Below, piece by piece: positions 12,701 to 49,925 of a stretch of DNA of 64,000 bases (positions are counted from its first letter, which is position 1; each line of letters starts with the position of its first letter). A program made the position numbers and the translations under genes. The DNA lies in the NCBI GenBank assembly GCA_016190445.1, contig JACPQL010000044.1, positions 1 through 64,000 on the forward strand, read 5' to 3'. The notes under the pieces are model-generated. The model did not search any database. It saw only the letters and a list, made by a program, of their open reading frames with translations, and was not told the DNA's origin. The stretch is from Chloroflexota bacterium (GTDB lineage: Bacteria; Chloroflexota; Dehalococcoidia; Lucifugimonadales; JACPQL01).

Positions 12701-12815
12701 TACCTGGTTGCGAAAAAGCGCGTCATCATCCGCCGCTCGTGGTGAGCTTGTCGAACCATACGAGCGGCGGAAAGTTCCCGCTGATGTCCTTCGACAAGGC
12801 TCAGGACGAATAACA
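12698..12815. repeat. Dispersed palindromic repeat R2 with MITE-like left end
   Basis: Begins TAGTACCTGGTTGCGAAAAAG and aligns over its length with R1 at 7634-7757, including the palindrome CGCTCGTGGTGAGCTTGTCG / TTCGACAAGGCTCAGGACGA. The first TAG is the stop codon of the ThDP enzyme. The 'TAG..GGTTGC..AAAA' start resembles the ends of the IS630-type MITEs, suggesting R1 and R2 are members with a different interior. Confidence 0.75.
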
Positions 12816-13058: not shown

Positions 13059-13141
13059 GGAGGGGCCATGGACTGGGCATTGAGCACCGCCATCTCTGTC
13101 CTCGTTGCTGCGTTGGTCGGTTCTGCTCGATTTTAGTTGAT

Positions 13142-14074
13142 TCACGGTTTGCCGCCTGTCCGAATCTCTTGGCGGTGGTAGCCACGGTGGACAACGGCAG
13201 CCCAGTTCGTAAAGGGAAACTGCACCTTTGCCATCTCCCCTGGCGTCTTGCCGTGCAGGGCTTCGTGGGGTCGGAAGAAGTTGTAATTGACAAGCCACCC
13301 GCCCATGACCAGCTTGGCCGTCTCGATGTTCTGCATCCCGCGCATGACCTTCGTACGCTGCTTGATGGTCCCGTGGAAGCGTTCAATCAGGTTGTTGTTT
13401 ATTTCGTCTCTGATGCCACGGGAACGGATGTGAACGGTGTCAGCGCCGAACACTCTGTCTACGGCGTCGGGATAGGCTGCAAGGCCGTCTGAGACGATGA
13501 ACCGTGGCGGGAGCATCGCCACCTTCTGAGCACGGACGAGCACCGCTACGGCATCCTCCATCGTCCGGCTCACCGACAGGTGCGAGGCCAGCAGGAAGCG
13601 GGTCTCGTCGTCTATCACGTCCCAAAACCAGGCGTTCTTGCCGTCAATCTCCAGCACCGTCTCGTCTACCGCCCACACCTTGCTGGCGTGGACACAGGCG
13701 TGATTGGCCTCCCACTGAGCAGCCTTGGTGAACCGGACAATCCACTCGTACACCGTGGAGTCCGATGGAAGCTTGCCGTAGAGTTGGTCAAGCTGGCGCC
13801 GGATGGCGTTCAGCGACAAGCCCTCATAGAAGCTCTGGAGGGCCGTAGCGATTTGGTCCGGCGGGAAGTGCATGTGCGGAAGGGCCTGATTCCCCGCGAA
13901 CTTCCGGCGACAGTCCTTGCACCAGTAGTATTGGACACTCCCGTGCATACCGTATTTGACGACGTTGGTAGAGCCGCAATACTTGCAGGCTATGGTCACG
14001 GTCTCGGTGCGGGTTACGTCGTGAACCTCTAACACCTGTTTGAGATGATGCTTATGGTGGGTATGTTCGTCCAT
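13142..14074 (-). CDS. IS6-like DDE transposase with N-terminal zinc ribbon
   Basis: A 310-residue transposase. Residues about 30-63 form a zinc ribbon with CKYCGS and WCKDCRRKF; a helix-turn-helix region follows (LSLNAIRRQLDQLYG). The DDE catalytic core shows WAVDETVLEI, FIVSDGLAAYP and NNNLIERFHGTIKQR, matching the IS6/IS240-type (DDE_Tnp_IS240) core, with the C-terminal VNYNFFRPHEAL motif. ATG at 14074 is 1 nt after the TAA of the passenger gene and has GAGGAG 8 nt upstream inside that gene, so the two are coupled. All catalytic residues are present. Confidence 0.92.
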   Translation of the reverse strand: MDEHTHHKHHLKQVLEVHDVTRTETVTIACKYCGSTNVVKYGMHGSVQYYWCKDCRRKFAGNQALPHMHFPPDQIATALQSFYEGLSLNAIRRQLDQLYGKLPSDSTVYEWIVRFTKAAQWEANHACVHASKVWAVDETVLEIDGKNAWFWDVIDDETRFLLASHLSVSRTMEDAVAVLVRAQKVAMLPPRFIVSDGLAAYPDAVDRVFGADTVHIRSRGIRDEINNNLIERFHGTIKQRTKVMRGMQNIETAKLVMGGWLVNYNFFRPHEALHGKTPGEMAKVQFPFTNWAAVVHRGYHRQEIRTGGKP

Positions 14075-14075
14075 G

Positions 14076-14729
14076 TTAGTGGCTCCTCACTCTATGCGGC
14101 GCCTCCTCAAACTTTGCCCAATCGCCACCCTCTCTTAACACCAACGTGTACATCTGAACGAATGGCCGCTTCAACTTTGGCTCAGAGAGCACAGTTATGG
14201 TGCAATGTAGGCACGAACCCACTGGGGCGAGTGCCCCGATTGTTTCCGTAGCAGTAAAGACGTTCAGAGATTCCATGCCATCATTTCGGCCATGCGCTTG
14301 AACAAGGTCAAGTTCAGCTTCGCCGTCTGCCTTCAACGAAATGTTCGGCGCGTCCCTTGCACCCCGCCACTTCCCACGAAATGCCAACTGCCCTCTATCT
14401 GTTCGTGCAAGGTGAACACGCACCTCAAAATCCGCCGTATGCTCACCCGTATTCGTGATTGTGAACCAAGCCTTGTGGCCTTCACGGTGCGGCACCACTG
14501 CCACTGACGGGCGTAAATCCGAGAGTTTCTGGCGCTGACGATACTCCGAGTACCATCCCCATGCAACAAGGAAACTGAAAACGCTGAAACTAACGACACC
14601 AGCCCACCGCCAAGGGGGATGTATCCCGCCGACTTCACTTACTTGCGCAGCATCCAGAGACCATGATGCGATGGTAAACGCGTAGCTTATCATCGCACCC
14701 ACCACGCGGGACATCGCCTGTTTGCCCAT
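14076..14729 (-). CDS. IS passenger: membrane-anchored hypothetical protein
   Basis: A 217-residue protein encoded inside the IS and transcribed ahead of the transposase. It has two predicted N-terminal TM helices (about residues 8-27 and 41-60, the second followed by EYRQRQK) and a C-terminal soluble domain of beta-rich appearance (AWFTITNTGEHTADFEVRV). GC is lower than host genes. I do not recognise a family. Its stop overlaps the ribosome site of the transposase, so the gene belongs to the IS rather than to the host. Role unknown; immunity, regulation or host benefit are all open. Confidence 0.7.
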   Translation of the reverse strand: MGKQAMSRVVGAMISYAFTIASWSLDAAQVSEVGGIHPPWRWAGVVSFSVFSFLVAWGWYSEYRQRQKLSDLRPSVAVVPHREGHKAWFTITNTGEHTADFEVRVHLARTDRGQLAFRGKWRGARDAPNISLKADGEAELDLVQAHGRNDGMESLNVFTATETIGALAPVGSCLHCTITVLSEPKLKRPFVQMYTLVLREGGDWAKFEEAPHRVRSH

Positions 14730-15143
14730 GCACCTCGCCCCGGAAGGGATGGACTCATGCTACGCCACCTCCTCCCTGCTGTCCACCACATCCGAGCAGA
14801 ACCCGTTGGTCTGGCTGATGGTCAGGCGTAGAATGTCGTCCCGGGAGTCCACGCTGCCACCGCCATCACGACCCGGCTCTCCCTCCATCGCGTCCACTCT
14901 GGAGCAGCCCGCCCAGAGCAGCGCGCAGACCCGGGGGAACATCGCGGGGCTGACTGGGCAGCACGGGGATGCTATGGCACTCGTCGCTGAAATTCTCCCG
15001 CGCGCCTTTCTGTGGGGGATCGGCGTGGCGCTAGGCGTTCTAGTGGTGGAGTCAACTTTCGGCACAATCCTGGTCTGGCTGTGGCTGCAAATACTACTCC
15101 CCTAGTCCATTATATGGACGGCGGCCCTCCTCAGCTATACAAT

Positions 15144-15211
15144 GCTTCGACAAGCTCAGGACGAGCGTACCATTCTGCCACTCATGGTTCGACAGGCTCA
15201 CCATGAGCGGC
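15144..15211. repeat. Dispersed palindromic repeat R3
   Basis: GCTTCGACAAGCTCAGGACG followed about 40 bp later by GGTTCGACAGGCTCACCATG; same palindromic core as R1 and R2 in opposite order. It lies between the interrupted membrane gene and the TcuA-like gene. Confidence 0.7.
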
Positions 15212-16719: not shown

Positions 16720-16921
16720 AGGCTCTTTGGAAGTCCCATCCTGGGGGAGTCCAGAGGAGGTGCATCCCCGGAGCTTGTCCTGAGCCCCGATGCAATCGGG
16801 GCCGAAGGAGCGGGGGCCTGGGGGTGTCCTCCCAAATACCTTTTCATCCCCCTCTCCCGCCTCCGGTGGGAGAGGGGGACACAGGCCCCGTCCTGAGCTT
16901 GCCGAAGGAGGGTGAGGGTTC
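16717..16921. mobile_element. IS630-type MITE, copy A5
   Basis: Left end CTAGAGGCTCTTTGG resembles A1; interior contains GGGGGCCTGGGGGTGTCCTC and the pyrimidine hairpin CCCCCTCTCCC/GGGAGAGGGGG (16849-16878). The right end is diverged and lies at the TTG start of the next gene. The first TAG is the stop of the TcuA-like gene. Confidence 0.5.
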
Positions 16922-49725: not shown

Positions 49726-49925
49726 GCCCCCTGAAGGTGATCAACTAAATAGAGTGACATTTTCATGGTCTCTGATAGTTCTCACCCGCTCATCGGACTT
49801 GTCGAACCATATGATCGGGCAAGAATCGCCGCCGCTCGTATCCTTCGACGGGCTCAGGACGAGCGGCGGCGGGCACTGGAAACCGTGTCAACATATTTTG
49901 TCAATAACCATCAGGCGGGGGGGGC
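49726..49925. mobile_element. Repeat element B2
   Basis: Left end GCCCCCTGAAGGTGATCAAC (49726) and right end, read on the minus strand, CCTGATGGTTATTGACAAAA, form diverged inverted repeats like those of B1; 'AAATAGAGTGAC' follows on both. The interior carries the R-type palindrome (CCTTCGACGGGCTCAGGACG). The rest of 49217-50135 holds the copy-2 leader and no gene I can support. Confidence 0.5.

Follow-up and report, generated by a model that had tools for sequence, protein, structure and literature searches.

A passenger-carrying IS6-type insertion element of Dehalococcoidia and a related group with exchangeable membrane-protein genes

Insertion sequences are taught as elements that encode only a transposase, and passenger genes in them as rare accidents. 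We know of few mobile cargo carriers in Chloroflexota. In a 64,000-nt stretch of contig JACPQL010000044.1 from a Chloroflexota bacterium (the window), a gene for a putative membrane protein lies next to a transposase gene between inverted repeats. An earlier note on this DNA, made from the sequence alone, had described the locus as a complete insertion sequence whose ends are IS6-like and which encodes a zinc-ribbon DDE transposase together with a membrane protein as passenger. The locus raises the questions of whether the membrane-protein gene is truly part of the element, and what it does there.

The inverted repeats and target-site duplication that the earlier note had reported were both found to be exact (Table 1), and at 22 bp the repeat arms are 77% complementary. 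When the element and one copy of the duplication were removed in silico, the flanks formed a continuous ORF of 114 aa, with its ATG preceded by GGAGGGGCC. Its product is small, with hydrophobic segments near both ends. The restoration of this ORF independently supports 13119 and 14803 as the true ends. A chance scan for an exact duplication together with at least 10/12 matching GG-ends (80-1300 bp) gave one match in 816 kb, and this match itself adjoins a full element with the same duplication; thus the ends and the duplication are not due to chance. The window element is a real, recent IS6-type insertion that entered a small ORF as one unit. There was no second copy of the exact unit in its own genome, and its joint mobility is therefore read from the ends and the duplication. 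A dispersed, REP-like 19-bp repeat, TTCGACAAGCTCAGGACGA, occurs at window positions 12737-12755, 15146-15164, 16888-16906 and 49844-49862, with copies near the insertion; none would be expected by chance.

Table 1. Features of the window element, and homologues of its passenger in other genomes
Feature	Location	Strand	Remarks
Complete insertion element	13119..14803 (1,685 bp)	genes on -	exact inverted repeats and target-site duplication; ORF restored on joining flanks
Target-site duplication, left copy	13111..13118		CGTTGGTC; exact 8 bp
Target-site duplication, right copy	14804..14811		CGTTGGTC; exact 8 bp
Terminal inverted repeat, transposase 3' side	13119..13129	+	GGTTCTGCTCG; exact 11 bp
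Terminal inverted repeat, passenger 5' side	14793..14803	-	GGTTCTGCTCG; exact 11 bp
IS6-family DDE transposase	13142..14074	-	310 aa; N-terminal zinc ribbon; begins 1 nt after passenger stop
Passenger gene (in the swappable slot)	14076..14729	-	217 aa; predicted N-terminal TM segment(s) and beta-rich soluble domain
Promoter-like site reading into passenger	14757..14785	-	TGGACA, 17 nt, TAGCAT; -35 at nt 19 from tip
Interrupted ORF, 5' part	13068..13118	+	ATG at 13068; flanks joined in silico
Interrupted ORF, 3' part	14812..15105	+	stop at 15105; flanks joined in silico
Solo homologue L134	genome G400		250 aa
Solo homologue L136	genome G390		241 aa
Solo homologue L137	genome G284		248 aa
Solo homologue L138	genome G182		245 aa
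Homologue L122	G391:C17, 166-501		frameshifted at run of seven G

The transposase scored 136.4 bits against the NCBIfam IS6 model NF033587 (cut-off 125) and 78.3 bits against Pfam DDE_Tnp_IS240. Its catalytic residues are D137, D196 and E231, with K238 seven residues after the glutamate, and its zinc ribbon consists of CxxC motifs at 30 and 52; the motif pair is present in 33 of 39 related transposases. The model score, the DDE triad followed by K/R, the 8-bp duplication and the GG-starting repeats are all traits of the IS6 family in the broad, ISfinder sense. The layout of a single gene in about 0.8 kb, which is typical of the family though not universal, is not found here, with two genes in 1,685 bp. 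In the strict IS6/IS26 family of Harmer and Hall (2019) the transposase is short and has no extra N-terminal domain, and the window transposase falls outside it in both length and zinc ribbon; these authors propose separating the long members from IS6/IS26 (PMC6807381). The N-terminal CxxC zinc finger that marks IS6 clade h is present, and a non-transposase gene lies within the repeats and duplication, as is required of a transporter IS (tIS). The transposase had no match on plasmids and one short match in viral contigs. On these sequence features we place the window element in the long, zinc-ribbon branch of the IS6 family, as an IS with a passenger. The earlier description of the element is thus borne out by the repeats and duplication, the NF033587 score, the CxxC pairs and, for the passenger, the TM prediction.

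The passenger has one clear TM segment at residues 39-61 (estimated dG -0.5) and a marginal one at 5-25 (dG 2.0), as estimated with our own implementation of the Hessa scale and cross-checked by Kyte-Doolittle. AlphaFold2 predicted two N-terminal helices and about eight strands at low confidence (pLDDT 58). Of the two TM helices that had been claimed, the one at 39-61 is therefore certain and the other plausible. The passenger was also said to be translated ahead of the transposase and coupled to it. Its position is as claimed, and the gap of 1 nt between its stop codon and the transposase ATG makes translational coupling plausible. No family in Pfam, NCBIfam, PHROGs or PADLOC (at E 0.01) matched the passenger, in agreement with the earlier view that it is of an unrecognised kind. 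Foldseek with its model gave no match at E below 0.001, and searches of 98 relatives, genome contigs, plasmids and IMG/VR gave no homologue. The window passenger is a real protein with one or two TM helices and a beta-rich domain.

The nearest relative of the window element lies in the same genome (L003/L118, 363-2135). This sister element (1,773 bp) shares the 11-bp ends of the window element, is flanked by an exact duplication of its own (ACTTCAAG) and encodes a transposase 63% identical to that of the window element. Its slot gene (a slot gene lies between the transposase and one of the ends) encodes a membrane protein of 238 aa. The layout is similar, a TM segment followed by a soluble domain, but in sequence this protein is unrelated to the passenger of the window element (z -0.3). 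The idea that copies would always contain the same two genes thus fails at the nearest relative. Related transposases were found in 34 of 393 genomes in a class-wide search, and in a sample of the phylum every genome with a match (11) was of this same Dehalococcoidia-type class. In the fetched flanks we delimited 39 elements (1.3-4.5 kb, all from Dehalococcoidia-type Chloroflexota) by an exact 8-bp duplication and at least 8/10 matching ends. The sample consists of well-assembled single copies with intact duplications in draft genomes, with ORFs called mechanically and TM segments predicted with simple scales.

In 29 of these 39 elements the transposase is separated from one end by a gene of the same orientation. 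These slot genes usually start at a distance of 40-130 nt from the tip. They often abut the transposase start or overlap it by 4 nt, and in many elements the gap between the two genes is -4 to +4 nt. At least one TM segment was predicted for the transposase-adjacent slot gene in 25/29 elements (26/29 when the first gene of the slot is counted), and a repeat with Kyte-Doolittle gave 25/29. For the most part the slot proteins show no relationship among themselves. The soluble exceptions include HNH genes (L114) and L106. The membrane passenger had been regarded as an oddity, and it is not an isolated one, as most related elements of the class carry an upstream membrane-protein gene. The earlier reading was also to be abandoned if copies lacking the membrane gene were the rule; such copies exist as a part of the group, with 10 of the 39 elements having no upstream gene, the transposase first, and intact ends and duplications. 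In the leader of one element (L068, 2984-4473), a terminator-like hairpin and a T run directly precede the transposase start codon. Stem-loops occur at the same place in several transposase-first or long-leader elements, and they are possible attenuators that limit read-through.

The distance of the window's promoter-like site from the tip recurs in related elements. A promoter-like pair is at a fixed place, either with -35 at about nt 19 and -10 ending at about nt 47 or with -35 at about nt 8 and -10 ending at about nt 36, in 30 of the 39 near ends against 3.8 expected from shuffles; these places were chosen after a free-position scan, and the score threshold of 7/12 is lenient. The free-position scan itself gave a weaker signal (11/39 at 9/12). 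The far end has a promoter-like site in 15 of the 16 elements with an inward ORF there and in 5 of the 23 without one (p 1e-5). In several elements, e.g. L075, L078, L082 and L060, the -10 box ends about 6 nt before the passenger ATG, suggesting that the passenger messages may be leaderless or nearly so.

The closest pairs on the transposase tree come from the same genome and carry unrelated passengers. In L075/L078 the transposases are 91% identical and the passengers (446 and 331 aa) are unrelated (z 1.5); the same is true of L073/L077 (95%; 184 and 217 aa; z -1.0) and L076/L082 (82%; 152 and 205 aa; z 0.9). The edges of the replaced segments lie close to the ORF boundaries. In L075/L078, the clearest pair, DNA homology covers nt 1-45 (84% identity), a stretch that takes in the start codon of the passenger (nt 43), and resumes 2 nt before the transposase ATG to continue to the far end (86% identity). 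Homology resumes 4 nt before the transposase ATG in L073/L077, and exactly at one transposase ATG in L076/L082 (nt 513 of L076 and nt 657 of L082), where the longest transposase frame of L082 starts at 632 rather than 657. Conversely, passenger segments are shared (z 14-19) in L070/L076, L076/L083 and L082/L087, pairs whose backbones are only 49-57% identical, and one cargo family is downstream of the transposase in L070 and upstream in L093 (40% identity). Unrelated passengers on near-identical backbones and shared passengers on distant ones indicate that passenger and backbone histories are uncoupled. We considered a single, fast-diverging family of slot genes and rejected it, because backbones 91-95% identical carry passengers without detectable similarity, and because the sister passenger also scores as unrelated to that of the window despite its similar layout. 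When the sources of two passengers were sought in 70 genomes, there was no match for that of L078 and only a partial one (residues 334-415) for that of L075. The similarity of the L075 passenger to a 2TM domain of conflict systems in Pfam is below the threshold (E 3.5e-4; 21.1 bits, cut-off 24.3) and is only a hint. No passenger pairs close enough for dN/dS were found.

In these elements the ends and the transposase stay constant; what lies in the slot, behind the promoter-bearing end and ahead of the transposase, is replaced as a whole gene by unrelated ones, nearly always for membrane proteins. We propose that the end promoter drives first the passenger and then the transposase as one coupled operon. 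The passenger would be cargo that comes from, or is exchanged with, orphan chromosomal membrane-protein genes, and not a transposition factor. We consider this combination of element anatomy, coupled end-promoter operon and exchangeable cargo to be probable.

The main rival is that the upstream membrane protein is an accessory or regulator of transposition, whose coupled, co-translational insertion into the membrane restrains or localises the transposase. Any membrane protein would then serve, and its sequence would be free to drift or be replaced. The constant position of the slot and its tight or overlapping junctions fit such a role, as does the fact that the TM property is kept and the sequence is not, with few soluble exceptions. 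However, the transposase-first elements retain intact ends and duplications, and membrane genes also occupy a downstream slot, on the other strand. Moreover, a 462-bp element with matching ends and duplication (L023, 1472-1933) has no transposase and encodes only a 105-aa protein with two TM segments; judged by its sequence, it is a passenger-only mobile cassette. For the group as a whole, we regard a transposition-regulator role of the slot as possible but unlikely.

Homologues of the window passenger, which exist without any transposase, also speak against the accessory role. They were reached by a class-wide search and then a three-sequence profile, and the solo homologues are distant from the window passenger, with roughly 16-31% identity. 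The homologues have in common an S-W motif in the N-terminal helix, a subsequent TM helix, and P-x-I/V-x-V and N-x-G motifs in the beta domain. One further weak match (L140, E 0.005) was kept out of the conclusions. The frameshift of L122 at its run of seven G may be phase-variable or a sequencing error. No related transposase was present in the fetched loci of the five homologues (Table 1). The four solo homologues have no repeats or duplications of the window type around them, so we rejected the notion that they are transposase-less elements. The neighbours of the homologues are ordinary genes. Their occurrence is sporadic (3/30 genomes of one family). The occurrence of a membrane gene outside the ends of an IS in relatives was to count against the earlier reading, and this did come about in part, as distant homologues that are solo genes. 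It indicates that the passenger family lives independently of transposition, and exchangeable cargo is, for this reason, a better reading of the window passenger than a transposition factor.

Among models of the solo homologues, the best (pLDDT 61) shows about ten strands with two to three helices. In Foldseek this low-confidence model matched KirBac/Kir channels, with E 1.8e-4 at best and a TM-score of about 0.3, and also a viral protein, uncharacterised, from Haloarcula hispanica pleomorphic virus 4 (E 2.2e-6, TM-score 0.47). The layout resembles that of KirBac, two TM helices and an Ig-like beta-sandwich, within the limits set by the pLDDT and the low TM-scores. Neither the window passenger nor the solo homologues have a pore loop or a TVGYG-like selectivity filter. 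Given the low TM-scores, the pLDDT and the missing motif, we do not call the family a potassium channel.

Neutral hitch-hiking would explain the passengers as genes captured at random beside a duplicated end and kept for a short time, with the membrane bias reflecting small or tolerated genes. High turnover and the absence of a recognisable function agree with this, and so does GC content, which is lower in the passenger than in the transposase in the pairs compared. Random capture, however, would bring mostly soluble proteins: TM segments were predicted in only 27 of 130 ORFs of similar size that flank the elements, against the 25 of 29 slot genes (Fisher p 5e-11, a value that is indicative, because the elements are related by descent and were treated as independent). 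The slot ORFs are also intact, up to 446 aa long, correctly oriented and just behind the end promoter, and we consider hitch-hiking improbable. That the 217-aa ORF is an accident, either not a coding sequence or a piece of host DNA caught between two repeats that are unrelated, would suit its lack of a database family and of a close homologue, but is hardly credible given profile homologues in five other genomes with matching topology and conserved motifs, the exact duplication and the restored target ORF.

If the passengers are indeed cargo, they may act at the cell membrane and so help the host or the element to persist; this is a guess. Among such roles, exclusion or defence directed at other mobile DNA or at phages, or else addiction, seems the most likely, though we hold this tentatively and it may well be wrong. 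Such roles would suit the hypervariable small membrane proteins, the sporadic solo homologues and the occasional methyltransferase/HNH co-cargo. For the window passenger, a membrane-acting exclusion or defence-type role is our leading guess. The co-cargo is found in larger related elements with the same type of ends, which carry genes for a DNA methyltransferase and HNH/endonuclease VII-like proteins (L107, 1349-3372; L111, 5969-6934; L114, 2277-6734). PADLOC and Pfam matches to PtuB, Cas9 and IscB among the other cargo were rejected as identities, as only HNH domains are shared. One cargo protein of the group matches DUF2283. In L073 (3816-4321), two small minus-strand genes lie downstream of the transposase; the pair resembles toxin-antitoxin-like DUF4258/DUF2283 neighbours.

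Three loci have two elements head to tail, with one 8-bp sequence before, between and after them: L104 (3446-7048, GGATTGGC), L060 (2150-5061, GCAAGAAG) and L023 (1464-3878, CAATCACG). The single sequence around and between the elements indicates that the second was inserted exactly at the target duplication of the first. These pairs suggest that existing copies are targeted, and insertion at existing copies could be a route by which cargo is gained.

Classic IS6/IS26 elements share with the window element a DDE transposase with K/R after the E, the 8-bp duplication, the GG tip and an end promoter ahead of the transposase. They differ in being about 800 bp long, with one gene and no zinc ribbon, and they mobilise genes through pseudo-compound structures, whereas the window group would do so through an internal slot. 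The clade h or clade VII elements of Clostridia (ISCpe7, ISCbo1 etc.) are alike in their zinc-finger DDE transposase, GG tips and, where seen, 8-bp duplications, but they are about 1.23-1.35 kb long and no passenger is mentioned in the passages that describe them (PMC7986276, PMC6807381). The single IS6 member noted as having a passenger, a hypothetical protein, is ISDsp3 of Dehalococcoides sp. BAV1, with an 8-bp duplication (2021 review of the IS6 family, PMC7986276). It is 1,456 bp long and encodes a transposase of 319 aa that is outside all clades and has no intact zinc finger (as given in the entry in PMC6807381). As the only IS6 passenger carrier in the papers searched, ISDsp3, which ISfinder lists in the IS6 family, is the closest recorded relative of the window element. 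The two come from the same bacterial class, are assigned to IS6 and have an 8-bp duplication and one passenger gene; by its published description in these passages, ISDsp3 differs in lacking an intact zinc finger and in being reported as a lone case. In the same passages (PMC7986276, PMC6807381) there is no mention of a bias towards membrane proteins, of swapping, of a slot at the promoter end or of a passenger-only cassette. The earlier statement that IS6 elements are normally single-gene thus holds for the classic short IS6/IS26 elements, but a passenger-bearing member of the same class was already on record (PMC7986276).

Transporter ISs and mobile insertion cassettes are similar to the window group in having an IS backbone with passengers and, as a derivative, a passenger-only form without transposase. 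In the window group, unlike in these, the slot gene nearly always encodes a membrane protein, lies behind an end promoter and undergoes exchange at the ORF boundaries or close to them. In the literature searched we found no lineage in which a slot for a membrane gene is the rule and its content is exchanged, ISDsp3 being the sole IS6 passenger carrier.

Our results suggest that very small transposons in Dehalococcoidia act as exchangeable carriers of membrane genes. One IS6-type lineage appears to keep a dedicated expression slot at its end, which almost always holds a membrane-protein gene, and this gene is swapped whole between copies of the same genome that are otherwise nearly identical. 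The elements might even be minimal gene-capture platforms, in which ends with promoters at a fixed distance and a constant transposase backbone frame a slot that exchanges complete, mostly membrane-protein ORFs; we put this forward as an open proposal that falls a little short of an even chance. Such exchange can be likened to the cassette exchange of integrons, with the slot inside a single IS of 1.5-2.5 kb. If the arrangement is general, three questions become open to test: by what means an element of 1.5 kb exchanges an ORF with such precision, which selective force fills the slot with membrane proteins, and whether Chloroflexota have in these elements an overlooked store of small membrane effectors, for example against phages. 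If the platform reading is true, a constant backbone would spread hypervariable membrane effectors through Dehalococcoidia.
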